A stretch of 64,000 bases of DNA from positions 1,957,501 through 2,021,500 of the forward strand of contig NZ_OY829944.1 of the NCBI RefSeq assembly GCF_963556105.2. The letters run 5' to 3'. The notes under the pieces are model-generated. The model worked only from the letters and a program-made list of their open reading frames with translations, did no database searches and had not been told where the DNA came from. This document shows positions 9,839 to 41,481 of the stretch, in pieces (the stretch's first letter is position 1; the number at the start of each line of letters is the position of its first letter). A program made the position numbers and the translations under genes. The DNA comes from an uncultured Tolumonas sp. Lineage in GTDB: Bacteria; Pseudomonadota; Gammaproteobacteria; Enterobacterales; Aeromonadaceae.

Positions 9839-10852
9839 TTACTGAGAACTCAAATCAAAAATCCTTTTCCCAAATCTTAAGTCATCCCGAACTTTCAGCA
9901 TGATCGACTCAATTTCTTCTAATTTTTTTAAGTTCTCTTTTTCTTCTCTTGATGTGGGTAATATTTTAGCAATACCGCCATTTTGAATCACAATACGTTG
10001 TTTACCGCGCAGAGCTAATAGTGGGTCATGCGTAGAAATAAATACGATTTTATCTTCTGAAACCAACAAATCTAACGCGCGTTTTCGATCTACACCTGCA
10101 TTTTCGATTTCATCGATCAGCACTATTGGCGCTGCACCCAATAATGCGGTGTCGGCAATCATCAATGCACGGGTTTGGCCGCCAGAAAGTTGGGTGATTG
10201 AGCAATCGTGGGAGAATTTTTCTCCGGTCAGGTCGTTAGCGCAATCAATAACACGTTGCACAGTTGACTCAATATTTTCTGTTAATCGGCAATGCGCATG
10301 CATGGTGATAAATTCATGCACACTCAGATCGACAACAAAATTCATGTTTTGGGAAAGCTGGGCCACCATTTTGCGGTGCATCGAAAAGCGAGTGTTATAA
10401 TCGGCGGGCGCGCCATTGAGTAATATCTGCCGACGGGTAGGTGTATCTCCCTGTGCCAGACACTCAATATCACTTAGTAAGCAGCTTTTACCTGAACCGG
10501 TAGGCCCAACAATACAAACGATATCACCCGCTTGAACCATTAACTCAATGTTTTCCGGTTCGCCTTGTTTATTGCGTCCGCCAATGATGGTCAATGTTTC
10601 AATCTGCGTTTGATTAGCCTGATAAATGGAATCAACCTCGTGAAGTAGTTGCTGCATATGAGGTAACAACATATCTCTCGCCATGCCGCCATCGGCCAGA
10701 TCTTCATCACTTAAACTGTTGATCCACTCTTTCACCGAAGTGGTTTTAACTGCGTGGGTTAACCCAATGCTATCAATGAATTCAGCGATGCAGGGTTGAT
10801 CACGTTGCAAACGGCGAATGTTCATTGATGATAAATTTTTATACTCACTCAT
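9839..10852 (-). CDS. Soluble ABC-type ATPase of the NifEN-fusion cluster
   Basis: 337 residues from ATG 10852, which overlaps the end of the GTPase gene by eight bases and is preceded by GAGGA. The first ~90 residues belong to no domain I recognise. Then comes one ABC nucleotide-binding domain: Walker A GPTGSGKS (116-123), signature LSGGQ (222-226), Walker B IVLIDE (243-248) and switch STHD. No transmembrane partner is encoded in the cluster, so it may be a soluble ABC ATPase acting on a protein or metal-delivery step rather than a transporter. It is the last gene of a tightly overlapping five-gene operon. Function unknown. Confidence 0.8.
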   Translation of the reverse strand: MSEYKNLSSMNIRRLQRDQPCIAEFIDSIGLTHAVKTTSVKEWINSLSDEDLADGGMARDMLLPHMQQLLHEVDSIYQANQTQIETLTIIGGRNKQGEPENIELMVQAGDIVCIVGPTGSGKSCLLSDIECLAQGDTPTRRQILLNGAPADYNTRFSMHRKMVAQLSQNMNFVVDLSVHEFITMHAHCRLTENIESTVQRVIDCANDLTGEKFSHDCSITQLSGGQTRALMIADTALLGAAPIVLIDEIENAGVDRKRALDLLVSEDKIVFISTHDPLLALRGKQRIVIQNGGIAKILPTSREEKENLKKLEEIESIMLKVRDDLRFGKRIFDLSSQ

Positions 10853-11546
10853 GATGACATTCCTCAAATTGCATTTTTTTGACATGACCTCGTTGATGAC
10901 GAGTTCCGATAGCCGTTTCACCGACACAATAGGGGCAAATTGCAGCGGGCATGGAAAAACGTAGATGTTGGCCATCCAATGATGTAATTGAGCTGCTGCG
11001 ACGCATTTGTAGAGCAATTTCTAGTGAACCTTGGCCAGTAATGCCATTGCAAAAAACGATGTGCGCGCGCGGGTTTGCAAGCCTGGTGTTATAAGCAAAC
11101 ACTTCACGTTCAGCCTGAGAAATGATGTCACCTTTGGTGATCACGACGAGATCGGCCAGTTTCAGCATTGGACCTACTTTCTTTGGCGTATTAATACCGG
11201 CTAACGCATCAACGACACAAATCGCCAGCACATCGTTAATATGCGGAGAGCAACGATTGCATAACCCGGCACTCTCACTGATTAGCATATCGAATTGCTG
11301 GTTTTGGCCCCACGTCAGGCAATCATCAATGTTGCTGACAAAAAAGTGATCGGGGCAAATGCCGCCTGAAATACCCGTTTTTACCGGAATGCCGTGTTTT
11401 TGATAGAGTTTGTCATCAGAGGTAGACAGTGCATCAAATTTAACGATGCCAACTTTCAGACCATCTTGCTTCAGTTGACGAATGGTCTGCAATATCACAG
11501 CAGTCTTACCAACAGAAGGGGCACCCGCGACGGTAATTAGCTGCAT
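10845..11546 (-). CDS. GTPase of the UreG/HypB (SIMIBI) type
   Basis: 233 residues. P-loop GAPSVGKT (8-15), a GGICPDHF segment (61-68), ESAGLCNRC (91-99, with conserved cysteines) and a TKGD base-recognition motif (138-141) place it with the UreG/HypB metallochaperone GTPases, which drive metal insertion into nickel enzymes. A C-terminal CPYC pair (204, 207) and a His/Cys-rich tail (EECHHE) add possible metal ligands. The start overlaps the upstream gene by ten bases behind CAGGAG. In this context it could load a metal or cofactor onto the NifEN-like protein or its client, which is inference. Confidence 0.8.
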   Translation of the reverse strand: MQLITVAGAPSVGKTAVILQTIRQLKQDGLKVGIVKFDALSTSDDKLYQKHGIPVKTGISGGICPDHFFVSNIDDCLTWGQNQQFDMLISESAGLCNRCSPHINDVLAICVVDALAGINTPKKVGPMLKLADLVVITKGDIISQAEREVFAYNTRLANPRAHIVFCNGITGQGSLEIALQMRRSSSITSLDGQHLRFSMPAAICPYCVGETAIGTRHQRGHVKKMQFEECHHE

Positions 11547-12553
11547 TGTTTTTTCTCCTGCTGTTGTAACCAGGCATTAAAGAATAATGTCGATGCCAGC
11601 TCAGTTTGTTGAACTAGATTATGTGCGCGAACATAGTCCCACCCGAGCCATTGAAAACGTGCCTCAGCCGGGATTGCTTGGCACTGTTGTAACAGGGTAG
11701 GTGGGTAGCAGTTGTGCAACAGATATTTGCCCAGTTGTTGGCTGGTTAAATAATCAATAATGGGCTGTAATCTTTCCCGTTTTTCAGGTTTTAACATGAA
11801 GGCGATAGGCATGGTGTACGCGCCATCCTGCGGCCAGATGATCTGACATTGCTGACGACGTGGGCACAGTTCAGCCTGCATCCAGGGCAAAATAGCAATT
11901 GCAGGTGCCTGCTGATTTTTCGACCCCATCAGTCGGGAAATTTCCACATGGTGCAGTAAATGCCGAACATTATGCGCAAAGGCAATGACGCCATTCGGGC
12001 CAAATTCGCGGTACAGCGACAACAACAGGAAGCGGTTGAATTCAGTGTAAGTGCCCGAGTCTGAAGAGCGTGAGCCACCAAACGTGATGTCATTGTGATA
12101 GATGGGATCGAGCAAATCTTCCCAGCATTGTGGGATAGGGCGATTCCCCAGTTTTGTTTTATCAACCAGAAAAACAAACGGGATCACTGAAAAGGGATGG
12201 AAGATGCCTGCTGGATCAGGGATCCCGGCTTTTTGATATACCGGATGAAAATCGGAAGGCTGGAATAAAGCAGGCCCTTGATAATAAGACTGATTTTTTG
12301 AACTCAATATATCTGATGAACAAGTAACGACGAGCATAGAGGGTAATGTTGCCGGATGTGTCGGCGCCACCACACGAGCAAAAGGCTCAAACCATTCACC
12401 GCCGGTCACACTCATACAATTAAGCACCACACCGCTTTTTACTTGATGAGTTGCTACTGCTTTATCCAGCCCCGATTTAAATGCCAATCGAAGCGGAATG
12501 GGCATTCGCCCGAGAAAATCGAGCGATGAAGTAACCGTATTATCAGGAATCAT
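11537..12553 (-). CDS. Solute-binding-protein-like protein without signal peptide
   Basis: 338 residues resembling periplasmic iron/oxyanion-type extracellular solute-binding proteins: a hinge-like VFLVDKTKLG segment, CWEDLLDP, and TFGGSRSSDSGTYTEFN, which looks like an anion-binding loop. The N-terminus (MIPDNTVTSSLDFLGR) has no signal sequence or lipobox, so it is probably cytoplasmic, which is odd for this fold. Its ATG overlaps the preceding ligase stop (ATGA). It could hold a small ligand or metal complex for the GTPase/ATPase pair encoded next. Annotated by fold resemblance only. Confidence 0.65.
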   Translation of the reverse strand: MIPDNTVTSSLDFLGRMPIPLRLAFKSGLDKAVATHQVKSGVVLNCMSVTGGEWFEPFARVVAPTHPATLPSMLVVTCSSDILSSKNQSYYQGPALFQPSDFHPVYQKAGIPDPAGIFHPFSVIPFVFLVDKTKLGNRPIPQCWEDLLDPIYHNDITFGGSRSSDSGTYTEFNRFLLLSLYREFGPNGVIAFAHNVRHLLHHVEISRLMGSKNQQAPAIAILPWMQAELCPRRQQCQIIWPQDGAYTMPIAFMLKPEKRERLQPIIDYLTSQQLGKYLLHNCYPPTLLQQCQAIPAEARFQWLGWDYVRAHNLVQQTELASTLFFNAWLQQQEKKQCS

Positions 12554-13662
12554 ATTGCAAGGCCCCCCGCGTAATACATCTGGCCAGAACGTTGATTGTG
12601 TTCTATCAGATCATGCGAAGGGGTTCGGCGAGTGGCCAGCATATTCCCCAGTAGTGATAAGGATCGGGCTCCTTGTTGTTCACCATGCTGAATCAAGGCA
12701 ATGCGGGCTTTATTGATAACATCGATAGCGGTATGACAGATCTTATCGTCAGAAAACCCCAAGATTGCAGCGCGTTGATAAAGGTGATGATCAGGATAAT
12801 CGGCCCGATCTTCCAACTGATGATCAAGGCAAAGCCCGATTAACAGATAACAACAAGCCGTTAATAATTCCGCCGTAGGCATCGCATCAAAAGCCTTGAA
12901 TTCGATACGACCATGTTCTGATGGAATTCGTGCGGTATAGCAAAGAGGGGCATCGGGTTTATTTGACGCGTTAGCAAACAATTTACAGGTTGGGCGCAAC
13001 CCAGCACGTTCGTAGGTTCTTTTGGATAAACCTTGCCATTGTGCTCCACCAGAAAATGGAGAGCTAAAACTGAACGGAACAATATACGGGCCGTAATAGG
13101 TCAGTTTACGGGCAACATCCAGACTCTTTTCAATGCTCATTTCGCTGAATGAAAGATTGATATCCGGCCCATAACTGAGCGTTGAGATATGCGATGCGGC
13201 ATATTCAGAATGTTGCTCTCGTAGTGTTTTTTCCCACTGATTCAGTGGTGGTTCGTAATGATATTCGGCTAATTCAGGGTTAAAGCCTGAAATGGCAAGC
13301 CCGAGTTTATACTTGTGCAGAGTGAGTGTTAATTGATGTTCAATATCTTTTAAAACTGCAATGGCTTCACATACAGATCCTCTTGGTGGTGTGCGAATCT
13401 CAACGCCTTTTACCGCCATCTGATGAAACGAACCATCGGAGTGAAATCGCTCGTCGCCTTCCAGATACCAATAGCCATTTTTGATGCCTAAATCACCGAC
13501 AGCCAGCGCGTTATCGAATTTTCCCGGCTTTTCTTCCAGTAAATCGGCTATCGATTGAAAGTCGAGATTCGCAAAATTACGCAGACGCCCGGTCTGTTCA
13601 CCTTCGGTATCGATAAGCATATATTCATATTCGATCCCGCATTTCATGTGCAGTGACTTCAT
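12550..13662 (-). CDS. Glutamate-cysteine ligase family 2 (GCS2)-like carboxylate-amine ligase
   Basis: 370 residues from ATG 13662 (GCGAGG ribosome binding site, 14 bases after the nitroreductase stop). The opening CGIEYEYMLID matches the conserved GIExE start of GCS2/YbdK enzymes, followed by DGSFHQMAVKGVEIRTPP and a PDINLSF segment. The family forms an amide between a glutamate gamma-carboxyl (or similar) and an amine with ATP. In a nitrogenase-type cluster it could make a small thiol or amide ligand, but the substrate is not predictable. Its place between a nitroreductase and metal-handling proteins suggests a dedicated pathway rather than glutathione synthesis. Confidence 0.72.
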   Translation of the reverse strand: MKSLHMKCGIEYEYMLIDTEGEQTGRLRNFANLDFQSIADLLEEKPGKFDNALAVGDLGIKNGYWYLEGDERFHSDGSFHQMAVKGVEIRTPPRGSVCEAIAVLKDIEHQLTLTLHKYKLGLAISGFNPELAEYHYEPPLNQWEKTLREQHSEYAASHISTLSYGPDINLSFSEMSIEKSLDVARKLTYYGPYIVPFSFSSPFSGGAQWQGLSKRTYERAGLRPTCKLFANASNKPDAPLCYTARIPSEHGRIEFKAFDAMPTAELLTACCYLLIGLCLDHQLEDRADYPDHHLYQRAAILGFSDDKICHTAIDVINKARIALIQHGEQQGARSLSLLGNMLATRRTPSHDLIEHNQRSGQMYYAGGLAI

Positions 13663-13675
13663 TATATCGGCCTCG

Positions 13676-14269
13676 CTATAACCATTGCGTGTAAGGTTCA
13701 GGGCTATCATCTGGCCGCACAGCAGCAACACTCTCTGTTGGGGTGCCTAAATAGAGAAAGCCGACGATTTGATCGGTATCTTGTAATTCAAACAACTGAT
13801 GCAGTTCACGGCTTTGCATTAACCAGCCAGAGCGCCAGATCCCGTTAAAACCCAAGCTTTGCGCAGCCATTTGCATCATCAGCACAGAAGATGAGGCACA
13901 GAGAATTTGATCAAAAGCAGAGACGTGTTTATTCACAGCTGGTGTTGCAACAACGGTGATCACCACTGGTGCTCGCAATGGCATTTTTCTAACTCGTTCG
14001 ATGACTTGTTCGGGTTTATTCATCACTTTTGCTGACTGTGCAAACAACTCACCTAATCGAATCAGCCCGTCTCCTTTCGCAACTAAAAAACGAAATGGGC
14101 GCATATATTGAAAATCAGGTGCGCGCATCGCTGCCCGTAGAATAATATTTAGCTGTTTTTCATCAGGAGCAGGGAGCGCTAAATGATGGCTTGAATGACG
14201 TGATAATAAAAATTTGGTCACTACATTTAGATCATGTCCCAGGCTAACGGTATTAACTTTAATATCCAC
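13676..14269 (-). CDS. Nitroreductase-family flavoprotein
   Basis: 197 residues, GTG start at 14269 behind AAAGGAG. Nitroreductase fold with the N-terminal FMN-contact segment (LLSRHSSHHLALP), RAPDFQYMRPFRF and the C-terminal GFNGIWRSGW and FLYLGTP segments, closest in pattern to YdjA-like small members. Members reduce nitro groups, quinones or other substrates with NAD(P)H; some are pathway-specific dehydrogenases or reductases. It is the first gene of a five-gene operon behind a strong sigma-54 promoter, so it is expected to be made only when the alternative nitrogenase regulon is on. Confidence 0.82.
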   Translation of the reverse strand: MDIKVNTVSLGHDLNVVTKFLLSRHSSHHLALPAPDEKQLNIILRAAMRAPDFQYMRPFRFLVAKGDGLIRLGELFAQSAKVMNKPEQVIERVRKMPLRAPVVITVVATPAVNKHVSAFDQILCASSSVLMMQMAAQSLGFNGIWRSGWLMQSRELHQLFELQDTDQIVGFLYLGTPTESVAAVRPDDSPEPYTQWL

Positions 14270-14328
14270 CTCATTTCTCCTTTAAATTTGGATGAAATAG
14301 TGAGCATGATTTATATAGAGTTAATAAA

Positions 14329-14345
14329 GGCATTAAATGTGCCAT
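14329..14345 (-). promoter_or_regulatory. Sigma-54 promoter of the nitroreductase operon
   Basis: The minus strand reads ATGGCACATTTAATGCC: TGGCAC at -24 and TGC at -12, with GG and GC exactly twelve bases apart. It is about 60 bases before the nitroreductase start. Confidence 0.78.
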
Positions 14346-14425
14346 TGAGTATTATTTTTAATGGGATATTGTCTATATATTTCAATTGGTTAGCATTTTT
14401 GGTAAAACCGTAATGGATATCTGTT

Positions 14426-14439
14426 GTACTTGTACGAAC
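14426..14439. promoter_or_regulatory. VnfA-type upstream activator site
   Basis: GTAC-TTGTAC-GAAC fits the GTAC-N6-GAAC form of VnfA sites. It is about 85 bases upstream of the sigma-54 promoter at 14345-14329, a normal distance for a sigma-54 activator. Confidence 0.65.
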
Positions 14440-14493
14440 TAATTGCAATATTTTGTGCATTACGGAACTAATGAGTGTCTGACATCTCCGTCA

Positions 14494-17112
14494 TTAAGCG
14501 ATATCTAGCAATAAATTACTGAAATTAAAAATTAAATTCCGGGCGCCCTGATAACCTAACCGTAAAAAATGTGGCACCCCAATATGAGTTGGTTCATGAA
14601 TTCCAATTGCAAAATGTTGAAGTCCTGCATTTTGAGCGAACGAGTAAAATGAATCTGGCGCAATCAATATATTTGCATGAGTTATCTGGGCCATGACTGT
14701 TTGGGTATCCCCAATCAGCACGTTGGACAAAGGAAGTTGAGTCAATAACTTATGGGGAACTGGACTAATTGCTTGCTCGATCGAAATTCCACTCTCTTGC
14801 AGCCAGTATGTCAGGTCGAATAGCAGATCTGGTTCTGCTGCGAGAACTGCTTTCCCCCGGCACAATATTTTGGCGTTATCCATCATCACATCAAGTAATT
14901 GCGCGCGTTGACGAATATATTTAGGTGGTACGTTCTGTCCGGATAATTGTGTAAAAAACTGAATCAAATGATCAGTAGCCTTTAAACCGGTCAGTTTATT
15001 TAATAATAATCCATCTCGTGCAGATTGGTTAAGAGTATGAAATGAATCTCTCATTTGTTCGCCTAAGGCAAGCACAGGAATGTTGCTTTGTTCGCAAGCA
15101 AGGCGTGACAGCGATACACCGCCATTTAATAAATAATCCTCACTGCCGGTGAATTGACCATCTAGTGAGGTGCTTAAATCAGGTAGAAAATACGCACTTA
15201 TTCCAAAGTCATCGGCTAACTGCTTGAGCCACTCAATATCAGCAATCGAGAGATGGGAGCCAACTAACACAATCAGACTAATAGGCGCTGTCTGATGAAG
15301 AACCGTCGAAGGCATCTCCGTGATTTTTTGGGCTACTGCATGAATTGCTTTTCCCCAACCATCTTGCAGTGTTCCCTCAAAATCAGGGGTATAAATATCA
15401 ATCATGTCTGATAGCTGTAATGACTCTGCGTGAGCTTCATTTCGCAAAGTGTGCAGACAAACGCCCTGTGCATCCATCATTCCTGTTGTAACAATAGCGA
15501 TAATAGAGGTATCGGAAGTTGATAAACTGCGTAGTGACTCAACCAATGTGTTTTGTCCGCCATGAATGGTTTCAATTTCATTCAAACTGACCGAATGAAT
15601 ATTGATCTGCTCACCAAAATAGCGACTTAAAAATATCAATCCACTGGCGGCACAGCCCTGTGCACCGAATAGTAGTACCTTTCCACCTTGAATTCCTTGA
15701 ATGGCTAATAACGCTCCCATGGGTTGCGTAAAGGCGAATGGTTGTATATTTCCAATGACAGACGATCGAATAATCTGGCATTGTGAGGCGAGGGCGGGCA
15801 TCGCTGATTTTGCCATTATCTCTGATGAGATCAGTTGTAAAATAGGCATATGCAACATAGCATCTATCTCATTCAATAGCGCAATGATGCCATTCAATCC
15901 AAGTAGGCTGAACTTGCGCTCATGACTCATTTCAACACATGGCACCGCGTATTTTTGCGCGGTATAGCGCATGCCACCCCCAGACAGCAAAATATCTACT
16001 TGCCCGGATTTTAATAATTCCGTTAGCTCTTTTTCCTGCCAATCCGGCAATTTATTGTTCGTGCATTGCTGTTTGATCTCGGCGTGCAATGATTTATCTC
16101 GTTCGTTGCATTTATGCAGAGACACACCACAGATAATGAGCCCGGCGGCTTGAAGATCTTCTATCAGCGACCATGTTTTTAAACCACCTAAATAGATCAG
16201 AACGCGCTTTCCATTCAGTCTGGGCCGTAGTAATTGCAGACACTGTTCAAGTTTTTGTTTCTCAATAAATAGGTAGTGCTCAACATTTGTAGTGAGTTGT
16301 TTGTTTGCCCCTGTTGATACTAGCTGTGCTGCCAACGATTTCAGCGTGTTGGCGAATGGTTTACTGCCATAAAGAGAGCCTTTAATAAATGGAATCGCGT
16401 AGCTCTCGTAAAGACGTTCGGCTAAACCAGGCATGGCCTGAGAGCAAAGATCTAGACTCATTTTTGCACGATGAGCTGATGCAATATGGTTGAAACGACC
16501 ATCACCGGGAATGGATGCTAAAATACGAATCCCCAGTTCAGCCAATATATTATTAAAGGCTTCAACTTCACCCATAACATTAAACTCACCAATGAGATTA
16601 ATGTCAGTTGGTGTTGAAATGTTCGGTTCTTGATAACCAATTACCTGTTCAAGCAGAGTTTTCACTGCGATCTGGTGTCCCTTTTGTTTTCCACCTGCAA
16701 ACCCTGGAGCATCGATGGCGATGATGGGCAAATGCAGCCGTTTTGAAGCGATTTGGCATTCGCTGACAAGGTCATCACCTAACATCGCTGTCAGGCAACT
16801 TTGATAAACAAAAATACCCGCCGGGGCAAAATCATCGGCAATACGGTCGAGCAATGCTTGTAACCGCAGCGTTCCCCCCATAACCAGATCAACTTCACCT
16901 AAGGCGGTTGTTACGCTCAACCTATGCAAATGTAAGTCACTGCTTTGCGTTGGGCGTGATGACCAGACGTGCCCCAGACAACCAGATGTACCATGTACAA
17001 CATGAATAACATCCGTAATGGGTTGCAATGCCAGCTTTGCACCGCGTAAGGCACAACCACCGGGTTTTTCTTTTGATTTATTACATGCAGCAATAGCAGG
17101 AGTCGGGGACAT
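14494..17112 (-). CDS. Fused NifE-NifN-like protein (nitrogenase-family component 1)
   Basis: 872 residues from ATG 17112 (AAGG upstream; a TTG two codons earlier is weaker). Residues 1 to ~430 are NifE-like (GGCALRGAKLALQPI, HGTSGCLGH, YQSCLTAMLGDD, DAPGFAGGKQ, NLIGEFNVMGE) and ~450-872 are NifN-like (QPMGALLA, GAQGCAASG, TTGMMDAQGVCLHTL, LPDLSTSLDG). The cysteines matching the NifEN [4Fe-4S] site are all present: C20, C45 and C106 in the E half and C487 in the N half, plus C223 (DLCSQAM) at the cofactor-precursor position. So it should be a scaffold or reductase that binds FeS clusters as one chain. It is distinct from the separate vnfE and vnfN in this window. It has no dedicated Fe protein; AnfH or VnfH could serve. 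It shares an operon with a TonB receptor and binding protein. Confidence 0.88.
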   Translation of the reverse strand: MSPTPAIAACNKSKEKPGGCALRGAKLALQPITDVIHVVHGTSGCLGHVWSSRPTQSSDLHLHRLSVTTALGEVDLVMGGTLRLQALLDRIADDFAPAGIFVYQSCLTAMLGDDLVSECQIASKRLHLPIIAIDAPGFAGGKQKGHQIAVKTLLEQVIGYQEPNISTPTDINLIGEFNVMGEVEAFNNILAELGIRILASIPGDGRFNHIASAHRAKMSLDLCSQAMPGLAERLYESYAIPFIKGSLYGSKPFANTLKSLAAQLVSTGANKQLTTNVEHYLFIEKQKLEQCLQLLRPRLNGKRVLIYLGGLKTWSLIEDLQAAGLIICGVSLHKCNERDKSLHAEIKQQCTNNKLPDWQEKELTELLKSGQVDILLSGGGMRYTAQKYAVPCVEMSHERKFSLLGLNGIIALLNEIDAMLHMPILQLISSEIMAKSAMPALASQCQIIRSSVIGNIQPFAFTQPMGALLAIQGIQGGKVLLFGAQGCAASGLIFLSRYFGEQINIHSVSLNEIETIHGGQNTLVESLRSLSTSDTSIIAIVTTGMMDAQGVCLHTLRNEAHAESLQLSDMIDIYTPDFEGTLQDGWGKAIHAVAQKITEMPSTVLHQTAPISLIVLVGSHLSIADIEWLKQLADDFGISAYFLPDLSTSLDGQFTGSEDYLLNGGVSLSRLACEQSNIPVLALGEQMRDSFHTLNQSARDGLLLNKLTGLKATDHLIQFFTQLSGQNVPPKYIRQRAQLLDVMMDNAKILCRGKAVLAAEPDLLFDLTYWLQESGISIEQAISPVPHKLLTQLPLSNVLIGDTQTVMAQITHANILIAPDSFYSFAQNAGLQHFAIGIHEPTHIGVPHFLRLGYQGARNLIFNFSNLLLDIA

Positions 17113-17120
17113 AACCAACC

Positions 17121-18221
17121 TTAATTATTCATCAGGTTAATGCGGGTACCCGCTGGTGAAACACCCGATAGCAGTTTTTCACTTTCGGCATCACTTAAGG
17201 CGTAATGATAAAAACGCTGATAGAAATCTCGGAATTCAGTTTTTAAATCAAGATCGTTAAATAGTTTGGGGTAAAGTGTCTTAGCCTCATACTCCATCAG
17301 CAATACACCTTCCAGACCGCCATCCCAGAAAAAAACGCCATCAGGCATTGCGTAAACCCGATGGTGTTTTACTGCGCTGATTTGCTGCCAGCGAGGATCT
17401 GTCGTTACCAGCGAAACCGGATATTGGCGCCCGACAAAGATCACTTGCGGGTCCAAGCGGATCATGTCCTCCATGGTAATTGCCCCTTTACCCATCATGG
17501 CACCTTGGCGTTTTGTTACCATATCGGCACCCGCTAATTCACCATACCAAAAGGTATTGCTGCCACGCCCCTGAGTGCTTAAGGCATCTGGCCCGCGTAA
17601 GTAATAAACCCGAAGTTTCTCTTTGGTTGGTAAATTACTCAGGCTGCTTTTAACAAAGGCCACCTTGTCATCATGATATTTAATCCATGCTTCTGCTTTT
17701 TCATGGGCTTGCTGAGTGTTTAGTGCATTGGCAAATAAGCGAATAGCTTGCCGTTGGCCTTCCAAAAACTCTTCTGCTGTTTCAGATTGTTTAGTAAGCG
17801 GCTGTGAATAAAGTGCAGGAATACCAGCACGAGCATACATGGCGGCTACTTGTTCGGCGTTATAACGATAAAAAATCAGTTCTGTTTTTCTGGCTAATAA
17901 CTCTTCAATATTGGCTTCGCCTATGACTTTCGGGATTTTTTTTACAGCAGGGTTAGTTATTTCCATCCATGGTGCGTTTGTCATCACCATTTGACTGATT
18001 CGTGGACTTTCTCCCAGCATGAATAATTTTTGATAACAGAGCACTTCAAGGCAGGCGATATGATTTGGCTGATTGGGTACTGATATTTTATGACCAGCCA
18101 GATCAGTTATAGTATGCATTGGAATTTTTTCCTCAGATGCATTAGAAAATGAAATAAGCAATATTGATGTAATAAACAGGAAAACATATTTTAACTTACT
18201 CATGATCAATAAAGACATCAT
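17121..18221 (-). CDS. Class III periplasmic metal/metallophore-binding protein
   Basis: About 366 residues with a signal peptide (basic MSKLK then a hydrophobic VFLFITSILLISF and SNA cleavage area). The mature part opens HTITDLAGHKISVP, typical of the FhuD/BtuF-like binding proteins that carry metal chelates. Two adjacent ATGs follow an AAGGAGG site, so the start is 18221 or 18218. It is a divergent paralogue of the binding protein at 31158-32207, sharing the DPRW..I.AVK.HRVY segment. No permease or ATPase gene follows it, so it may deliver to the permease encoded at 30079-31146. Its gene lies between a TonB receptor and the NifEN fusion. Confidence 0.82.
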   Translation of the reverse strand: MMSLLIMSKLKYVFLFITSILLISFSNASEEKIPMHTITDLAGHKISVPNQPNHIACLEVLCYQKLFMLGESPRISQMVMTNAPWMEITNPAVKKIPKVIGEANIEELLARKTELIFYRYNAEQVAAMYARAGIPALYSQPLTKQSETAEEFLEGQRQAIRLFANALNTQQAHEKAEAWIKYHDDKVAFVKSSLSNLPTKEKLRVYYLRGPDALSTQGRGSNTFWYGELAGADMVTKRQGAMMGKGAITMEDMIRLDPQVIFVGRQYPVSLVTTDPRWQQISAVKHHRVYAMPDGVFFWDGGLEGVLLMEYEAKTLYPKLFNDLDLKTEFRDFYQRFYHYALSDAESEKLLSGVSPAGTRINLMNN

Positions 18222-18272
18222 GCCCTCCTTAGCCAGAGAAATAACAGGCCTTTGCAGGCCCGTATAAAATAA

Positions 18273-20420
18273 TCAGAAATTAACTTTCCCTGTGAGACTA
18301 AAAATGCGAGGGGTTCCCAGAGATAATCCATCACCACTGCGATAATAAGACCAATAGCTTTTATCAAACACATTTGAAATATTGAAGTTAACGCTGAATG
18401 GCTTTTTACTAAAACGCACACCGGTATCAAATGTCGCTGCACTATCAATATAATCCGTATTGAGATCATCAACAGCGCGTTTACCGTAATAATTCATACC
18501 ACCAATCAGCGTGAAACGTCGATCTACAGGTAATGTATATTCTGAAAATAACCGAGATTGATATTCCGGCACATTTACAGGTCGTTTACCTTCAATGCTG
18601 GTATTGTTTTTTGCATCTATTATTTTTGCATCTAACCAAGTTGCACCACCAGATAACACTAAATTATCCGTTGCTTTACCGGTTAGTGTCACTTCTAAGC
18701 CTTGATGTTGTTCACGACCATCTTGTTTATAAACATTGTCTGTCGGGTCAGTATATTCATTAATTTTATTAATGCGAAATAACGCAGTATTAAGATCTAT
18801 TGATCCCAGATGTGATTTAGCACCTACTTCATATTGTTTGCTTGCACTTGGCGCCAGCATCTCATTAGCATTTGATGCAGTACTAGGAGCAGTTCCTCCT
18901 GCATTTAATCCCTCCATATACGATACATAAGTCGTGATAGGATCCCAAGGTGTATAAAGTAAGGCGGCACTCGGTGTATTTTTACTTTGTTTATACGATG
19001 TGCTGGCAGAGCTGGATAATGTTGATACCCCATGGGAATATTGCTCTAGTTCTGCATGTGTAATGCCTAGCAAGGTTGAAAAACCATATGGTAAAACAAT
19101 GCGGTCTCCTAAAACGAAGTTGGTCATTGTCTGACCCTGTATGGTGGTTGTTCCTCCCAGCTTAGCGTCAGGATCTGAATAGAAAGTAGGATTATTGATG
19201 TTTGAACTGCCTAGCGTTGTTTTTACATCGACACCACGCGTGTAATCATATTGGGTGCCGGTATAACCGCTGGTAATTTGATGAACTAAAGACCCAGTTT
19301 CAAAATTGGAATCCACCAAGGCATAGGAGGAATGAGTCTGTTCATTCTGTCTTGGTGAAGCCGTATTTATTTCTGTGTAATCACCATTATTATTAGTCAG
19401 CGTTGCACCGACATAATTATATTGGCGCCACATATCACCGTAACGATAGCCAGTACGTAATGTAAAATGTTGCGAAATATCACTTTGGAAACCTGCACCA
19501 ACCAGATCTTTTGTTGACTGATTATATGACCAACTTTGACCATATTGACGGCTGGCTTTAAATTTTGACGCATCTGGAACATATATCCCTTTCGTTGGGT
19601 TGACGTTGATATATGTTTGCAAACTGTTGACGTAATAATCCTGATGCCAGTAATCAAAAGTAACTTTATTTTTCTCATTCAGGTTGGTTGTTACGACACC
19701 TGACAGCAAAGTTCGTTGCTGATTGCCACCATCAATATAGGTTGAACCGTTTTCACGATAAATATTGGTCCGGTACTTGATGACACCGTTATCATCCATC
19801 GGCCCGCCAGCATCCGCATGTAAGTAATTAATCCCACCACCATATGTACCGGTAGACAAATCGGTTAAGCGTTCACTGGTTGGCTGTTTACTCACATAAT
19901 TAACACTGCCTCCCATTGCTGAAAAGCCATATAAAAAGCCTGACAAGCCATTAAGCACTTCGATGCGATCCACATTTTCAAGGGGTGGAAAAGTAAAACT
20001 ACGGTCAACCATACCATCACGTAATTCACTTTGATCGGCGGCAGTAAAACCTCGGATCATAACTCTGGACAGCGATGAATAACCATTCGGTTCCATTAGC
20101 GTTGCAACCGTCGGGTTGGTTTTCAGCGCATCAGATGCCGTGTGTGCGCTACGGTTTCCTATTTGTTCTCCTGACGTCACATTCACAGAATAAGGCGTCT
20201 CTTTCAGCGGTATGTTGCCTAATGGCCCCACACTTGCTTTTTTATAACGATAACCAGAACTTGCTTTCCCCTCGTTCTTTTTATCTTCCGCAACGCCTTT
20301 TACTTTGACCTCTTTAAGTAGAACAGGGTTTTGTTGATCCGATGAACTCTCTGTTGCTGCATGAGCAACCGGAAAAAAGAAAGACATCAGTAAACTAAAT
20401 GCAAGAGTTGGTTTGTTCAT
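18273..20420 (-). CDS. TonB-dependent receptor, siderophore type (system 1)
   Basis: 715 residues with a signal peptide ending AHA. A plug domain follows (LKETPYSVNVTSG, SRVMIRGF, RIEVLNGLSGFLYG, GGSVNYVSKQPT), then a beta-barrel ending in aromatic residues with the final GTPRIFSLTGKVNF. It would import a metal chelate across the outer membrane using TonB-ExbB-ExbD, whose genes lie at 27241-29240. It is a paralogue of the receptor at 32238-34424 (both have a GKAS.GYR...VGPLGN segment). The gene diverges from anfH. Downstream, the binding protein and NifEN fusion follow closely, suggesting one operon. The chelate is not identifiable; a molybdenum, vanadium or iron metallophore fits the context. 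Confidence 0.88.
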   Translation of the reverse strand: MNKPTLAFSLLMSFFFPVAHAATESSSDQQNPVLLKEVKVKGVAEDKKNEGKASSGYRYKKASVGPLGNIPLKETPYSVNVTSGEQIGNRSAHTASDALKTNPTVATLMEPNGYSSLSRVMIRGFTAADQSELRDGMVDRSFTFPPLENVDRIEVLNGLSGFLYGFSAMGGSVNYVSKQPTSERLTDLSTGTYGGGINYLHADAGGPMDDNGVIKYRTNIYRENGSTYIDGGNQQRTLLSGVVTTNLNEKNKVTFDYWHQDYYVNSLQTYINVNPTKGIYVPDASKFKASRQYGQSWSYNQSTKDLVGAGFQSDISQHFTLRTGYRYGDMWRQYNYVGATLTNNNGDYTEINTASPRQNEQTHSSYALVDSNFETGSLVHQITSGYTGTQYDYTRGVDVKTTLGSSNINNPTFYSDPDAKLGGTTTIQGQTMTNFVLGDRIVLPYGFSTLLGITHAELEQYSHGVSTLSSSASTSYKQSKNTPSAALLYTPWDPITTYVSYMEGLNAGGTAPSTASNANEMLAPSASKQYEVGAKSHLGSIDLNTALFRINKINEYTDPTDNVYKQDGREQHQGLEVTLTGKATDNLVLSGGATWLDAKIIDAKNNTSIEGKRPVNVPEYQSRLFSEYTLPVDRRFTLIGGMNYYGKRAVDDLNTDYIDSAATFDTGVRFSKKPFSVNFNISNVFDKSYWSYYRSGDGLSLGTPRIFSLTGKVNF

Positions 20421-20462
20421 AAACAGTTCCTTCCTAGAACATTAAAAACTATTTATGACATC

Positions 20463-20479
20463 TCAACTTATATGCCAGC
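20463..20479 (-). promoter_or_regulatory. Possible sigma-54 promoter of TonB receptor 1
   Basis: The minus strand reads CTGGCATATAAGTTGA, with TGGCA and TTGA at correct spacing; the -12 GC is GA, so the match is imperfect. It lies 45-60 bases before the receptor start. Confidence 0.4.
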
Positions 20480-20597
20480 AAAATAACGAACATTATATGC
20501 ATTACTATAACTTTTTGATTTTGAATGAATTTATTTTTAATAAATCAAAATTTAGTTCTAAAATGTCAAAAAATAATGAGTGATTTTAACTTGATTT

Positions 20598-20611
20598 GTT
20601 CAGCCAAGAAC
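20598..20611. promoter_or_regulatory. Upstream activator site GTTC-N6-GAAC
   Basis: GTTC-AGCCAA-GAAC, extended to seven-base arms (TTTGTTC/GAACAAA, 20595-20614). It is about 125 bases upstream of the TonB receptor 1 promoter candidate and could serve either divergent unit. Confidence 0.55.
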
Positions 20612-20765
20612 AAAAGCACCATGAGTTGTGCAATATGGTAAATAATCTCAAAAATGAAATAATTACATGAATGAACGACTCTGCATTAAAAAAAATTACA
20701 TTTATGAACTTATTGTTCACAGGTAAGTGTTATTTAAAGAAAGATACTCATTAAAACATTAAATA

Positions 20766-20779
20766 GTTCATTTCTGAAC
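20766..20779. promoter_or_regulatory. Upstream activator site of anfHDGK
   Basis: GTTC-ATTTCT-GAAC, about 195 bases before the anfH -24 element. A near match GTTC-AAAAAT-GTAT follows at 20795-20808, so there may be two tandem sites. A further TGAAC/GTTCA inverted pair with five-base spacing at 20705-20719 does not have the right geometry. Confidence 0.6.
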
Positions 20780-20970
20780 AAGTGGACCGCAAATGTTCAA
20801 AAATGTATTTTCTTCTCTTAAATAAAATTTATTTAATCTCCATTTTCTTACATAGTTGTACATATTTAAATTTAACCAAAAAAACAAATAATTGCATTTA
20901 AAATAATTTTATTAAAATTCAATATGTTACTAATGCTTCATCCATATGATCAAAGTACGCAAATGTGCAG

Positions 20971-21041: not shown

Positions 21042-21911
<870 letters not shown>

Positions 21912-21926
21912 TTCGTCTGAATGTAA

Positions 21927-23550
<1,624 letters not shown>

Positions 23551-23561
23551 AGGAGATCGCA

Positions 23562-23984
23562 ATGGCTTACACACCGAAAAATATGGCAGAACGTAAGTAC
23601 CAGAAAGTTTATACCAGTAACCCATTGAACGATGCAGATCCAGAATCTAAAGAAAAGATTGCACCACTGGAAAACTACATCATGAAAAACTGTCTTTGGC
23701 AGTTTAACTCTCGCGGGTGGGATCGCCGTAAACAGAACGCAGGAATTCTCGGTCTTACCACGCAATTGTTGTGTGATGAAGCTGTCGACATTACGACGCC
23801 ACAAGAGAAATGTTACTGGGTCGATGCAGTGTGTCTGGATCGGGCTTTCAAAGAGAATTTTTCTTGGATCAAGGCCATGACCAAGGATGACATTATAGCC
23901 CTGATGAAGCTTCTGCATGCTCGCATAGACTGGCTGACTATCGACGGCTCTCTCAACGTCGAACTGACCGTCGTCAACTATTAA
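23562..23984 (+). CDS. anfG: Fe-only nitrogenase delta subunit AnfG
   Basis: 140 residues, behind AAAGGAG eleven bases after the anfD stop. The conserved core of delta subunits is present (NCLWQFNSRGWDRRKQN, CYWVDAVCLDRAFKENF). This subunit is found only in alternative nitrogenases and helps assemble the cofactor-loaded component. It is slightly longer at the N-terminus than VnfG in this window (112 residues), as is usual for AnfG. Confidence 0.95.
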   Translation: MAYTPKNMAERKYQKVYTSNPLNDADPESKEKIAPLENYIMKNCLWQFNSRGWDRRKQNAGILGLTTQLLCDEAVDITTPQEKCYWVDAVCLDRAFKENFSWIKAMTKDDIIALMKLLHARIDWLTIDGSLNVELTVVNY

Positions 23985-23994
23985 GGATACTGCC

Positions 23995-25383
23995 ATGACT
24001 TGTGATATCAAGGAAAAAGACCGCGCGGGTACTATTAACCCGATTTTCACCTGCCAACCTGCTGGTGCTCAATTTGTCAGTATCGGTGTCAAAGATTGTA
24101 TCGGTCTGGTACATGGTGGTCAGGGTTGCGTTATGTTCGTTCGGTTGATCTTTTCTCAGCACTTTAAGGAAAGTTTCGAACTGGCATCGTCGTCTCTGCA
24201 TGAAGATGGCGCGGTATTCGGTGCACTAAATCGTGTGGAAGAGGGCGTTGATGTGCTGCTTGCTCGCTATCCGCACGTCAAAGTGATCCCAATCATAACC
24301 ACTTGTTCTACCGAAGTTATCGGTGATGACGTTGATGGTGTGATTCGTAAACTGAATGACGGCCTGCTTAAAGAGAAATATCCTGATCGGGAAGTGCACC
24401 TGATTGCGATTCATACACCGAGTTTTGTCGGCAGTATGATTAGCGGTTACGACGTCGCGGTGCGTGATTTTGTAAGACATTTTGCGACCAAAACTGAACC
24501 TAACGGCAAGATCAATCTGATCACCGGTTGGGTAAACCCAGGCGACGTCAAAGCCCTCAAAAACCTGCTGGGTGAAATGGATATTGATGCCACCGTATTG
24601 TTCGAAATCGAAAGCTTCGATTCACCACTGATGCCGGATGGCAGTGCCATTTCCCATGGCAATACTACCATCGACGATTTGCGCAGCACAGCCAATGCGG
24701 TTGGTACCATTGCCCTGAATCGTTATGAAGGTGCTAAAGCGGCTGAGTGGCTGAAGAGCGAATTTGACATTCCAGCGATCATCGGGCCAACCCCGATTGG
24801 TATCCGTAACACGGATACCTTCCTGCAAAACCTGAAGAAGATGACTGGCAAACCCATTCCACCATCATTGGTTGAGCAGCGCGGCGTCGCGATTGATGCG
24901 TTAACCGACATTACACACATGTTCCTGGCTGGAAAAAAAGTCGCCATTTATGGCAATCCAGATCTGGTTATCGGGCTTGCCGAGTTCTGTATTGATCTGG
25001 AAATGAAGCCAGTTCTCTTGCTGCTCGGTGACGATAATGTGCAATACAAAGAAGACTCTCGCTTACTTGCATTGAAAGAGAATGTCGACTGGGATATGGA
25101 AGTGATCACCAATGCCGATTTCTGGGAATTGGAAGATCGCATCAAAAACAAAGGCCTTGAGCTTGATCTGATCCTAGGTCATTCAAAAGGCCGTTTTGTA
25201 GCGATTGATAATGATATTCCAATGTTTCGCGTTGGTTTCCCGACCTATGACCGCGCTGGCATGTATCGTCATCCGGTAGTTGGTTATGAAGGTGCAATTT
25301 GGCTGGCAGAGCAAATGGCAAATACCATCTTTACCGACATGGAACATAAGAAAAATAAAGAGTGGATTCTCAACGTTTGGTGA
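23995..25383 (+). CDS. anfK: Fe-only nitrogenase beta subunit AnfK
   Basis: 462 residues, matching the usual AnfK length. P-cluster cysteine regions are PIFTCQPAGAQ, HGGQGCVMFVR and [11 protein letters not shown]. The ending HKKNKEWILNVW is close to that of VnfK ([10 protein letters not shown]). Partner of AnfD at the P-cluster. Eleven bases separate it from anfG, and AAGGA precedes the start. A terminator follows the stop, which may reduce but not abolish read-through into the accessory genes. Confidence 0.96.
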   Translation: MTCDIKEKDRAGTINPIFTCQPAGAQFVSIGVKDCIGLVHGGQGCVMFVRLIFSQHFKESFELASSSLHEDGAVFGALNRVEEGVDVLLARYPHVKVIPIITTCSTEVIGDDVDGVIRKLNDGLLKEKYPDREVHLIAIHTPSFVGSMISGYDVAVRDFVRHFATKTEPNGKINLITGWVNPGDVKALKNLLGEMDIDATVLFEIESFDSPLMPDGSAISHGNTTIDDLRSTANAVGTIALNRYEGAKAAEWLKSEFDIPAIIGPTPIGIRNTDTFLQNLKKMTGKPIPPSLVEQRGVAIDALTDITHMFLAGKKVAIYGNPDLVIGLAEFCIDLEMKPVLLLLGDDNVQYKEDSRLLALKENVDWDMEVITNADFWELEDRIKNKGLELDLILGHSKGRFVAIDNDIPMFRVGFPTYDRAGMYRHPVVGYEGAIWLAEQMANTIFTDMEHKKNKEWILNVW

Positions 25384-25435: not shown

Positions 25436-25885
25436 ATGGCTGACATGATTAGCACTGTATTTGAAACAAATGAAGAGCGGTTCCAACGCTGTTATTTAGA
25501 GGCGAGAGGATATCACTGGCGTGCAAATAAATTTCATGAAGAAGAGAAGCGAGTCAGCCTGATATTTAATGTTGCAGCAATGGCCATAGAATCATATTTA
25601 ATTGCATTGTGCGCATTTCATAATGTCATGCCGCTGAATCACAGTTATCGTTGCTTGATGTTTGACGTTAAAAAACTGGAAAACATAGCCGTTGATTTAG
25701 AAAACCAAATAATAAGTTTAGATAAAATATTTGGCATTTGCTCGCTGGATAACTATTTCCATGGTAATCCAACCATAGATGACATGCTAAACAGCCTTGA
25801 TGTATGCGAAAAAATCTATGCTATTTTCGCTAAAAAAGAGCTCAACGTTAACGATATCTACAGCACTATAGTCAATAAGGAATAA
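25436..25885 (+). CDS. Unrecognised anf-cluster protein, mostly helical
   Basis: 149 residues with a TTAGGAATAG ribosome binding site. No family recognised. The sequence looks alpha-helical and soluble, with a central hydrophobic helix (LIFNVAAMAIESYLIALCAF) and conserved-looking Tyr/His/Cys residues. It lies between anfK and a flavin-fold protein with one base separating the next gene, so it is part of the anf accessory set. It could correspond to one of the small genes seen after anfK in other diazotrophs, but I cannot match it. Confidence 0.7.
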   Translation: MADMISTVFETNEERFQRCYLEARGYHWRANKFHEEEKRVSLIFNVAAMAIESYLIALCAFHNVMPLNHSYRCLMFDVKKLENIAVDLENQIISLDKIFGICSLDNYFHGNPTIDDMLNSLDVCEKIYAIFAKKELNVNDIYSTIVNKE

Positions 25886-29303: not shown

Positions 29304-30077
29304 TTAGGCGGGCACAAAAACCGTATGACCTGCTGCATTGATGGCCTCTACGGTCACATCATATAAATGGTGAATGGTGGCTGGCGTAATAACTGATTTA
29401 GGCGTGCCAAATTGCTCAATTACACCATCAATCAGCAAAGCGACTTTGGTCGATGCACGAAGTGCATGTTCGGGGTGATGTGTGGTCATCAAAATACCAA
29501 AACCGCTGGCAACCAATTCTTGCAGTGTGTCTAACAACCGAAACTGATTGCCATAATCAAGCCCGGTAATGGGTTCATCCATGATAAAAATACGTGCGCC
29601 TTGTGCTAAAGCACGAGCAATCAGTACTAATTGGCGTTCTCCGCCGGATAACTCGGTATAAGCCCGACGGCTCAAATGATTGATCCGCAGTTGCGATATC
29701 GCTGCGTAAGCGGCATCTTTGTCTTCTTGTGTGGGCGCGCGAAAAATGCCGGAATGGGGTATGCGCCCTAAGGTGACCACCTCTTCCACCAGATAGGGGA
29801 AGGGGGGGGTATGCGACTGCGGCACATAAGCAATATGCGTGGCTAACTCACGTCGTGAAAATCGAGCTAATGGCTGATCATTCAGAGAAACATTACCCTG
29901 TTTAGGCTTTAGAAAACCCTGTAACAATTTTAGTAATGTCGTTTTGCCTGCGCCGTTTTTCCCTAGCAGTGAAACCAATTCACCTTGTTTTACCGACAAT
30001 GAAACGCCGCACAATACCGGATGGCCTTTATAGGCATAAGACACGTTGTTTGCGTTAAGTTCAGTGAGGTCATTCAT
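29304..30077 (-). CDS. ABC importer ATPase, FecE/BtuD type
   Basis: 257 residues. Walker A GKNGAGKTT, Q-loop, signature LSGGERQLVLIARAL, Walker B IFIMDEP, switch His TTHHPEHA. It powers the FecCD-type permease encoded immediately upstream (one base between the genes). The system has binding protein, permease, ATPase and TonB receptor all in one minus-strand unit under a sigma-54-type promoter, which is unusual for ordinary siderophore uptake and fits metallophore capture for nitrogenase. Confidence 0.9.
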   Translation of the reverse strand: MNDLTELNANNVSYAYKGHPVLCGVSLSVKQGELVSLLGKNGAGKTTLLKLLQGFLKPKQGNVSLNDQPLARFSRRELATHIAYVPQSHTPPFPYLVEEVVTLGRIPHSGIFRAPTQEDKDAAYAAISQLRINHLSRRAYTELSGGERQLVLIARALAQGARIFIMDEPITGLDYGNQFRLLDTLQELVASGFGILMTTHHPEHALRASTKVALLIDGVIEQFGTPKSVITPATIHHLYDVTVEAINAAGHTVFVPA

Positions 30078-30078
30078 A

Positions 30079-31146: not shown

Positions 31147-31157
31147 AACAGACTCCG

Positions 31158-32207: not shown

Positions 32208-32237
32208 ACACATATTCCTTTCGTGAGCTGGCTTAAA

Positions 32238-34763: not shown

Positions 34764-35672
<909 letters not shown>

Positions 35673-35687
35673 TTACATATTATATAG

Positions 35688-35704
35688 AGCAACTGGCATG
35701 CCAA
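35688..35704 (-). promoter_or_regulatory. Sigma-54 promoter of vnfH
   Basis: The minus strand reads TTGGCATGCCAGTTGCT: TTGGCA and TTGC with exact spacing, about 45 bases before the vnfH start. Confidence 0.85.
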
Positions 35705-35768
35705 ATATTTAACATGTTGATTTATAAGTATATTTAAATTTATATCGTGATATAGGACTCTATATCAC

Positions 35769-35782
35769 GTTCATCGGAGTAC
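35769..35782. promoter_or_regulatory. Upstream activator site of vnfH
   Basis: GTTC-ATCGGA-GTAC (GTAC-N6-GAAC on the minus strand), about 70 bases upstream of the vnfH promoter. Confidence 0.6.
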
Positions 35783-35869
35783 AAATCAAGGAAAATAGTT
35801 CATAAAAGTAAAAATATTCTGATATATCCTTTAAAAAGATGTTTTTTATTATAAATCGAGAAATTAAAC

Positions 35870-35897
35870 TATAAAAAAAGACGCACAAGGCGTCTTT
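35870..35897 (-). terminator. Terminator after vnfX
   Basis: The minus strand reads AAAGACGC, CTTGT loop, GCGTCTTT followed by more Ts; it ends the vnfA-E-N-X unit about 20 bases past the vnfX stop. Confidence 0.85.
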
Positions 35898-35915
35898 AAA
35901 GTTAAATGTTTTTTC

Positions 35916-36461: not shown

Positions 36462-36472
36462 ATCAGTTCCCT

Positions 36473-37891: not shown

Positions 37892-37901
37892 CGCTCGTTC
37901 C

Positions 37902-39317: not shown

Positions 39318-39402
39318 ATGTCTTCTCCTGCCACCCGTTGCATGGTGAGCCTTCTTAAAATTAGATATTCATTCCCGAATATTTTTTCGCATTGCATGGC
39401 TA

Positions 39403-41372: not shown

Positions 41373-41481
41373 TGAATCACGCACATATAACCATGCATCT
41401 ACGATTCATCAAATCTTCATCGCAAAAATTAACGGCTTATAAATCATGTAGTTGCAAAAAATAACCATCCGTTATGCGTAA

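Follow-up and report, generated by a model that had tools for sequence, protein, structure and literature searches.

What kind of system is encoded by the two operons next to the alternative nitrogenase genes of an uncultured Tolumonas species, where a NifE-NifN-like fusion protein stands among genes for metal uptake and handling? The window analyzed here is a 64-kb stretch of the 4.0-Mb genome G000 (contig C1, positions 1957501–2021500), and a preliminary description of it had proposed an undescribed system that builds, ligates or modifies a metal cofactor. Judging by which genes they contain, how these are conserved, how they co-occur with vnf and which promoter motifs precede them, the two operons are probably the metal-supply branch of a VnfA/sigma-54 regulon accompanying the alternative nitrogenases and serve the acquisition or handling of the heterometal, with the fusion as the cluster-bearing last component. 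The delivery of vanadium and molybdenum to nitrogenase assembly is poorly known. The operons comprise eight reading frames:

18273–20420, minus strand: TonB1, a TonB-dependent siderophore-type receptor, first gene of the fusion operon (TIGR01783, 258.8 bits, above the cut-off of 223.5)
17121–18221, minus strand: periplasmic metal-chelate binding protein (Peripla_BP_2) of the fusion operon (PF01497, 47.3 bits)
14494–17112, minus strand: NifE-NifN-like fusion, 872 amino acids when counted from the ATG at 17112, with the open frame extending to a TTG at 17118 (PF00148 matched twice)
13676–14269, minus strand: YdjA-like nitroreductase, which leads the five-gene operon (PF00881, 59.4 bits; PRK10828, 170.8 bits, below the cut-off of 183)
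12550–13731, minus strand: GCS2-like protein, weakly assigned (open from 13731; the four-species alignment covers it from near 13659 on)
11537–12553, minus strand: SBP_bac_6-type binding protein (SBP), with a predicted ferric-binding-protein fold and, by eye, without a signal peptide
10845–11546, minus strand: GTPase of the G3E (CobW/HypB/UreG) superfamily (PF02492, 46.5 bits)
9839–10852, minus strand: soluble ABC-type ATPase (PF00005, 61 bits; an ATG exists at 10852, the presumed start)

All eight frames were found in two operons where the preliminary description had placed them, and its family assignments stand for the receptor, the binding proteins, the fusion, the nitroreductase and the ABC ATPase; those of the GCS2-like protein and the GTPase are limited. 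The GCS2 match is weak (PF04107, 16.5 bits with a cut-off of 21; TIGR02050, 26.8 bits with a cut-off of 176.4, E 3e-6), and an AlphaFold model built from four sequences had a mean pLDDT of 38.8, which is unusable for a fold check. The GTPase belongs to its superfamily (PF02492 cut-off 20.7) but scored below the curated cut-offs for hypB (51.9 against 121.2) and ureG (34.1 against 204.2). It shares with the G3E metallochaperones HypB, UreG, MeaB and COG0523 the P-loop GTPase superfamily and a conserved Cys-Pro-Asp-His (CPDH). It differs from HypB and UreG in these scores, in its partners, an ABC ATPase and a cytosolic SBP, and in extra CxRC and C-terminal CxxC motifs (CPYC here), which like CPDH are invariant across four diverse relatives.

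The SBP is predicted to adopt the fold of an FbpA-type ferric-binding protein, with about 8–14% identity in structural alignments, and a sequence search against solved structures gave nothing at E 0.001. Its apparent differences from FbpA and FutA are this low identity, the lack of a signal peptide by eye, the tyrosine pattern given below, and the DUF1858 domain of some relatives. A relative from Fusobacterium has this domain in front of the SBP (54 bits with a cut-off of 32.2), and a weak match of 23 bits is seen at locus L048; ahead of the Tolumonas ABC ATPase, Pfam found no DUF1858, though the N-terminus resembles it by eye. As had been claimed, the last four genes overlap, by 4 bases (GCS2/SBP), 10 bases (SBP/GTPase) and 8 bases (GTPase/ABC, if the inferred start at 10852 is used). 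No permease gene stands in the operon alongside the soluble ABC ATPase.

The five-gene operon recurs in four Tolumonas species in the identical order nitroreductase-GCS2-SBP-GTPase-ABC, with vnf or anf genes within about 10 kb (in G002, on L013 and the adjoining L160), so its arrangement is more than chance. The GCS2-like protein is conserved in these four species, which are the only carriers among 61 genomes (the window's genome and 60 relatives) and all belong to one genus. The scan with four GTPase queries of a collection of 84,980 species yielded at least 576 confirmed relatives, of which the best 80 loci were kept. At E 1e-10 in tblastn, the ABC ATPase accompanied the GTPase in 79 of these 80, the SBP in 73, and all three occurred together in 72, as in a Fusobacterium record with a DUF1858-SBP, GTPase and ABC trio; a nitroreductase match was found in six, every one alphaproteobacterial. 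The closest GTPase relatives are 64–71% identical, and among them three alphaproteobacterial loci (L046, L047, L050) also have vnfD and vnfK matches. Frequent neighbors in the best 80 loci were Peripla_BP_2 (14), ModA-like (13), ModB-like (11), NifD-like (9), FecCD (9) and NifK-like frames (8), counted by crude reading-frame clustering with labels given by reading and no background control.

Searched with the fusion, 33 of the 35 genomes behind 36 GTPase loci had some nitrogenase-like match, and the other two (G437, G461) had none at E 1e-15. The preliminary description held that neighbors occurring in non-diazotrophs with another known function would speak against it; SBP-GTPase-ABC does reach beyond diazotrophs, judging from its at least 576 GTPase relatives and from these two genomes, and no known function surfaced there either. 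The GCS2-like protein was found in none of the 35 other GTPase-carrying genomes. Downstream of the SBP-GTPase-ABC trio, L061:7098-7337 encodes a small Cys-rich protein of some 80 residues that has no Pfam match and has relatives in 14 of the 80 loci. At L041:8639-9304 in G400, a PF04060 Fe-S protein adjoins a more distant GTPase-ABC pair, where no SBP match was seen.

Co-occurrence was counted across 55 genomes of the family that includes Magnetospirillum fulvum, a close GTPase being one of at least 338 bits. vnfD is present in 10 of the 55 (82–84% identity to the vnfD of the window), and the close GTPase occurs in 9/10 genomes with vnfD and 1/45 without (Fisher p 1.5e-8, uncorrected for relatedness), the one exception, G514, having anfD. 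G512 and G470 have weaker GTPase matches, of 232 and 143 bits. The nitroreductase and ABC ATPase lie beside the GTPase in all nine vnf genomes (G428 at L043, G427 at L042, G490, G485, G481, G493, G496, G475, G476), and the SBP in eight, the contig of G476 ending first; no nitroreductase was seen beside the GTPase in G514, G512 or the Aeromonadaceae genomes G008 and G014. Thus, in one family, the genes for SBP, GTPase, ABC ATPase and nitroreductase track vanadium nitrogenase almost one to one. Among 13 Aeromonadaceae genomes, the GTPase is present in 5/7 with vnfD or anfD and 1/6 without (p 0.08); G001 and G010 have vnfD and no GTPase, and are fragmented assemblies (730 and 390 contigs). In a sample of 369 genomes of the class, the two GTPase matches at E 1e-25 were the window and G400, where the SBP is replaced; in 398 genomes sampled from the phylum, the window and G657 were the two that matched at E 1e-60, the place of G657 coinciding with that of G475. 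These results bear out the proposal of a conserved, seemingly metal-related gene set linked to the alternative nitrogenases.

Its regulation was analyzed with the VnfA1 motif GT(T/A)C-N6-GTAC, as given in PMC9542535. The promoter elements and the operons nearby are:

14426–14439, strand unspecified: VnfA-type site that matches the published motif, before the five-gene operon
14329–14344, minus strand: sigma-54 promoter-like site TGGCAC-N5-ATGCC before the five-gene operon
20598–20611, strand unspecified: VnfA-type site of the symmetric form GTTC-N6-GAAC in the TonB1-anfH gap, kept in the G009 species
20766–20779, strand unspecified: second symmetric variant in the TonB1-anfH gap, kept in the G009 species
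20462–20477, minus strand: possible sigma-54-like site TGGCAT-N5-TTGAG before TonB1, with an imperfect -12 element, seen by eye and the same in the G009 species
21081–25383, plus strand: anfH-type Fe protein, anfD, anfG and anfK, divergent from the fusion operon
29304–34424, minus strand: TonB2 operon (second TonB receptor, binding protein, FecCD permease, ATPase), with a VnfA-type site at 34627
34764–44822, strand unspecified: vnfH-type Fe protein, NifX-family protein, vnfN, vnfE, vnfA-type regulator, vnfD and vnfK

The exact motif occurs four times in the 64 kb, each time in a gap that precedes the five-gene operon, TonB2, vnfH or vnfD/vnfA. On average, shuffled windows gave 3.5 matches, so the placing and not the number of the motifs is the signal. 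With the symmetric form, our own extension made after the sites had been seen, all seven matches are intergenic by our gene list, in which non-coding sequence makes up 11% (p 2e-7), and none lies in coding sequence, compared with 3.3 in shuffles; the three added sites are at 20598 and 20766, and at 54597 before a TupABC-like operon. Both elements of the sigma-54 site, TGGCAC and ATGCC, are invariant in the four Tolumonas species within an alignment of 65% mean column identity. The three other species all have this site before the five-gene operon, and one of them has the exact VnfA1 motif. Of six upstream stretches from the other Tolumonas genomes, one has the exact motif (L015, nitroreductase operon); a relaxed match is found in L013, and GTTC-N6-GAAC in four (L015 twice, L160, and TonB2 of L014). 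Four of 17 alphaproteobacterial upstream stretches have the exact motif (TonB-E in L181 and L183, TonB2 in L043, SBP in L042); the 13 absences are weak because gene starts were taken from tblastn ends. Upstream of TonB1 there are only the symmetric variants and the element with the imperfect -12, which the sigma-54 scan did not list. Expression together with the alternative nitrogenases, as the preliminary description suggested, is supported by these motifs. Four GTTC/GAAC palindromes, of which two have N6 spacing, lie close together in the TonB1-anfH gap (20426–20780), and the G009 species largely conserves them. The GTTC-N6-GAAC at 54597 precedes a TupABC-like (tungstate-type) operon at 51793–54487, which may belong to the same regulon.

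Counterparts of both operons are in print. According to PMC9542535, Avin_02430-02390 of A. vinelandii is a VnfA1-dependent operon with a sigma-54 promoter that encodes a substrate-binding protein (02430), a 'nickel binding GTPase' (02420), an ABC ATP-binding protein (02410), a nitroreductase (02400) and a glutamate-cysteine ligase (02390); minus the last gene, it is conserved in Proteobacteria with vanadium nitrogenases. Compared by description, the five-gene operon shares the five products (the ligase match being weak), the sigma-54 promoter, the VnfA1 site and the link to vanadium nitrogenase. It differs in gene order (nitroreductase-ligase-SBP-GTPase-ABC here, SBP-GTPase-ABC-nitroreductase-ligase in A. 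vinelandii) and in the G009 species, where it adjoins anf and no vnfD was found in the genome. PMC9542535 also describes three TonB-receptor operons as VnfA1-dependent and strongly on only without molybdenum and vanadium; one, with the receptor Avin_39890 and ABC components, has as its last gene the 'NifD-like' Avin_39870, and with molybdenum this gene 'does not influence growth'. Likewise compared by description, this operon and the fusion operon both have a TonB receptor, an ABC component and a component-1-like gene at the 3' end, but the last gene here is a NifE-NifN fusion, and permease and ATPase genes are absent. The label 'undescribed system' thus no longer holds: the kind of system is known yet functionally unexplained, and the literature searched gave no functional data for these proteins. 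What appears to be new, within that literature, is the fused form, the NifE-derived clade with an uptake operon in two classes, the cluster-site residues, the spread of SBP-GTPase-ABC, and the counts.

The fusion falls below every curated cut-off (nifE, 391.9 against 505.1; nifN, 309.5 against 326.8; the NifEN fusion model, 633.8 against 1229), so it is related to NifEN without being an ordinary NifEN. In a thoroughly computed tree of 34 rows, the E halves of the two fusions formed one clade with five orphan E proteins (support 100/100), nested in an alphaproteobacterial NifE group (100/98) and apart from VnfE and from the NifE of the genus itself; an earlier quick tree with two orphans gave the same grouping (99). 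The N halves group with alphaproteobacterial NifN with weaker support (88). Because the fusions sit on a long stem (2.0 changes per column), their precise position within the clade is unsure. The fusion would thus be a NifEN paralogue of alphaproteobacterial type: the simplest history would be that an alphaproteobacterial NifEN-like pair was transferred and fused in the Tolumonas lineage, and was reduced to the E half elsewhere. A separate fused NifEN in the Geobacteraceae metagenome-assembled genome G452 (L125:1354-4191) falls outside the clade, so NifE-NifN fusion arose more than once. A plasmid search with the fusion matched 248 records, and among the 15 matches listed the annotations were nifE and nifN at 34–36% identity; the 89 plasmid records matched by the binding protein were all below 60% identity. 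With the fusion as sole query, for which its 8-residue patterns were poor, the 84,980-species collection yielded no relative.

Orphan E genes were sought in the 55 family genomes with the fusion E half and three relatives; in the E-half search, two alphaproteobacterial training rows stood far above the remainder, and score alone did not resolve further members. In five of the ten vnf genomes (G428, G427, G490, G485, G481), a Peripla_BP_2 gene is immediately followed by a gene for a stand-alone NifE-like protein. The order is TonB-FecCD-ATPase-PBP2-E in four, and the 3.7-kb contig of G427 shows ATPase-PBP2-E. This cassette shares a contig with vnf in G428, G481 and G490 and lies on a separate contig in G485 and G427. 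It was found in 0/45 genomes without vnfD (p 7e-5), a count that rests on scores and checks of selected matches; second NifE-type matches in G514, G511 and G478 proved to be ordinary nifEN. Behind the E gene of M. fulvum come UmuD-like and UmuC-like frames (named by reading of the frames) and no N gene, and its cassette receptor and binding protein are 49% and 42% identical to those of the fusion operon; the G427 binding protein is 50% identical. In G490, the NifE-like frame (L181:11301-12645) is broken near its end, through sequencing error or decay.

The fusion itself is present in two of the four species with the five-gene operon, G000 and G009 (80% identity), and adjoins anf in both; G009 has anfD, and no vnfD was found. 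Its other matches in 14 genomes searched look, by identity, like ordinary NifE, NifN, VnfE, VnfN or D/K types. The fusion and the five-gene operon are therefore separable. The single system of fusion, GTPase, ABC ATPase and ligase did not hold up, since the fusion (2/4 species) and the ligase-like gene (0/35 GTPase genomes) are optional. As a marker of one system, the fusion is ruled out by its absence from two of the four species. It is also ruled out as the scaffold of the vanadium cofactor, which the preliminary description had already rejected, by the separate vnfE and vnfN and by its presence in G009.

The cluster sites were compared in the 874-amino acid frame, in which C22, C47, C108, C225 and C489 correspond to C20, C45, C106, C223 and C487 of the 872-amino acid count. 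In agreement with the preliminary description, all five cysteines are present, and they are invariant with the NifE/VnfE or NifN/VnfN rows compared. According to PMC13031127, A. vinelandii NifE C37, C62 and C124 with the nearby NifN C44 are [4Fe-4S] ligands, and a role of Gln419 is likewise given there; PMC13128457 also assigns cluster cysteines in NifEN and names C15/C25 at the N-terminus of NifE as the docking pair for NifB-co. All seven E-type sequences (two fusions, five orphans) keep the columns of C37, C62, C124 and C250, the last being the internal cluster ligand (C225 in the fusion), and the N half keeps the C44 column. The docking pair is not intact in the fusions, where the columns hold Ile and a gap and a single Cys (C12) lies nearby. 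At the Gln419 position, His is found in the fusions (2/2, MSHER), the orphan E proteins (4/4 readable, NHER or THGR) and VnfE (8/8, DHVR), compared with Gln (NQER) in ten NifE rows, nine proteobacterial and one from Seleniivibrio; four NifE rows were unmatched by the pattern.

The positions that we take to be those of NifD H195, H442, C275 and Q191 were set via motifs. At the H195 position, the fusions have His (2/2), the orphans Thr, Ser or Ala, and NifE (10/16) and VnfE (8/8) Asn. In the N half, 13 of the 54 columns conserved in NifN/VnfN are altered. The fusion thus resembles NifEN and VnfEN in its fold as judged from sequence, its [4Fe-4S] cysteines, its internal cluster Cys and the VnfE-like His at the other cluster end; it differs in its scores, the broken docking pair, the absence of an adjoining nifX and its uptake-operon context.

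In the proposed route, the TonB1 receptor and its binding protein would import a metal chelate when molybdenum is scarce, drawing on the permease and ATPase that are both encoded in the TonB2 operon. NTP-driven steps in the cytosol, carried out by the flavin nitroreductase, the SBP of predicted ferric-binding fold, the G3E GTPase and the ABC ATPase, may then free, reduce or pass on vanadium, molybdenum or iron, by analogy with other G3E metallochaperones, which act for nickel or cobalamin. At the end of the route, the NifE-NifN-like protein would carry a NifB-co-type iron-sulfur cluster and either receive the heterometal as an auxiliary scaffold or keep it usable.

Several observations weigh against this route. 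Among 23 relatives of the SBP, no column that is invariant or almost so holds Tyr (ligand sites not superposed), and His at the Gln419 site also occurs in two ordinary NifE-type rows, the fused NifEN of G452 and a Pelosinus NifE. The exact VnfA1 motif is missing upstream of TonB1 and, before the five-gene operon, in G002 (one relaxed match) and G003. G462 has vnfD without a close GTPase, and of the anfD-only family genomes G502, G511 and G514, only the last has one. The SBP-GTPase-ABC core is widespread in anaerobes, including genomes without a detected nitrogenase-like protein, so its function becomes a wider question of cytosolic metal handling. The fusion is dispensable, as it is present in only 2/7 Aeromonadaceae genomes with vnfD or anfD, and vanadium cannot be its only metal because its carrier G009 has anfD and no vnfD.

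A plain iron supply for iron-hungry nitrogenases, provided by both TonB systems and the SBP-GTPase-ABC-nitroreductase quartet without a role specific to vanadium or molybdenum, seems unlikely: the close GTPase tracks vnfD and not nitrogenase at large (10/55 family genomes, compared with 47/55 that have a NifE-type match at E 1e-80), and the ModA- and ModB-like frames counted above beside the trio in other phyla, within the limits of those labels, point the same way. In favor of a dedicated pathway that would build, ligate or modify a new metal cofactor with the GCS2-like enzyme, the gene for that enzyme shares the operon in four Tolumonas species and a ligase is the last gene of the A. vinelandii operon. 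This pathway is highly improbable: the gene is absent from all 35 other GTPase genomes, its match is under the cut-off, PMC9542535 names the ligase as the non-conserved gene, and we found no evidence for the ligation of a cofactor. It is also improbable that the fusion is a diverged extra NifEN that backs up assembly of FeMo-co or FeV-co. Its top match among solved structures, the 919-residue chain of 9i0g, spans both halves (E 3.5e-123), and the ligands of the [4Fe-4S] cluster and the Cys250 equivalent are kept; against this, the fusion is below every NifE, NifN and NifEN cut-off, no neighboring frame is of NifX type, the C15/C25 pair is not complete, the N half is altered, the clade sits with uptake genes in two bacterial classes, and the genome already has a separate NifEN and VnfEN.

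The fusion could also be a catalyst: as a nitrogenase-like reductase with AnfH or VnfH as its electron donor, it would reductively release the metal from the imported chelate or change the chelator itself. Its gene terminates a chelate-uptake operon, strong ligands occupy both cluster ends (C225 at one, the His of MSHER at the other), which is also the case in catalytic NifD, His stands at the H195 place where most NifE rows have Asn, and the NifB-co docking pair is broken. We consider such a catalyst unlikely because the scaffold VnfE shares the His at the Gln419 place, the fusion operon contains no Fe-protein gene, and the clade does not preserve the active-site likeness: its orphan members carry Thr, Ser or Ala at the H195 place and, where this could be seen, are not followed by an N gene. 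A form of this proposal that covers the whole clade, in which soluble NifE-derived proteins recruited to chelate uptake use a NifB-co-type cluster with Cys and His ends, reduced by the Fe protein of an alternative nitrogenase, to strip or reduce the imported heterometal, is quite unlikely; if true, it would represent a nitrogenase-like enzyme devoted to metal acquisition. For the metal-supply branch, in turn, the NifE-derived protein that tracks a chelate-uptake operon offers named residues for mutation.

The window also contains the alternative nitrogenase genes themselves. anfD, anfG and anfK are all above their own family cut-offs, vnfD exceeds its cut-off (955.2 against 823.1) and vnfK is slightly below (854.5 against 873.95); vnfE and vnfN exceed the nifE and nifN cut-offs and were named from position and tree. 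Beyond anfHDGK follow TonB-ExbBD, the TonB2 operon, vnfH, the NifX-family gene, vnfNE, the vnfA-type regulator and vnfDK, and past these come FixABC-like genes, a Mop-type protein, a second nifA-type regulator and the TupABC-like transporter. Because nifDKEN lie separately on contig C2, the genome encodes all three nitrogenases. Frames without a family match in this region are 25436–25885 and 54720–55595 (Pfam and NCBIfam) and 44897–45853 (Pfam). The FixABC-like electron-transfer flavoprotein genes after the vnf genes, at 46315–49792, are kept in G002 (L160).

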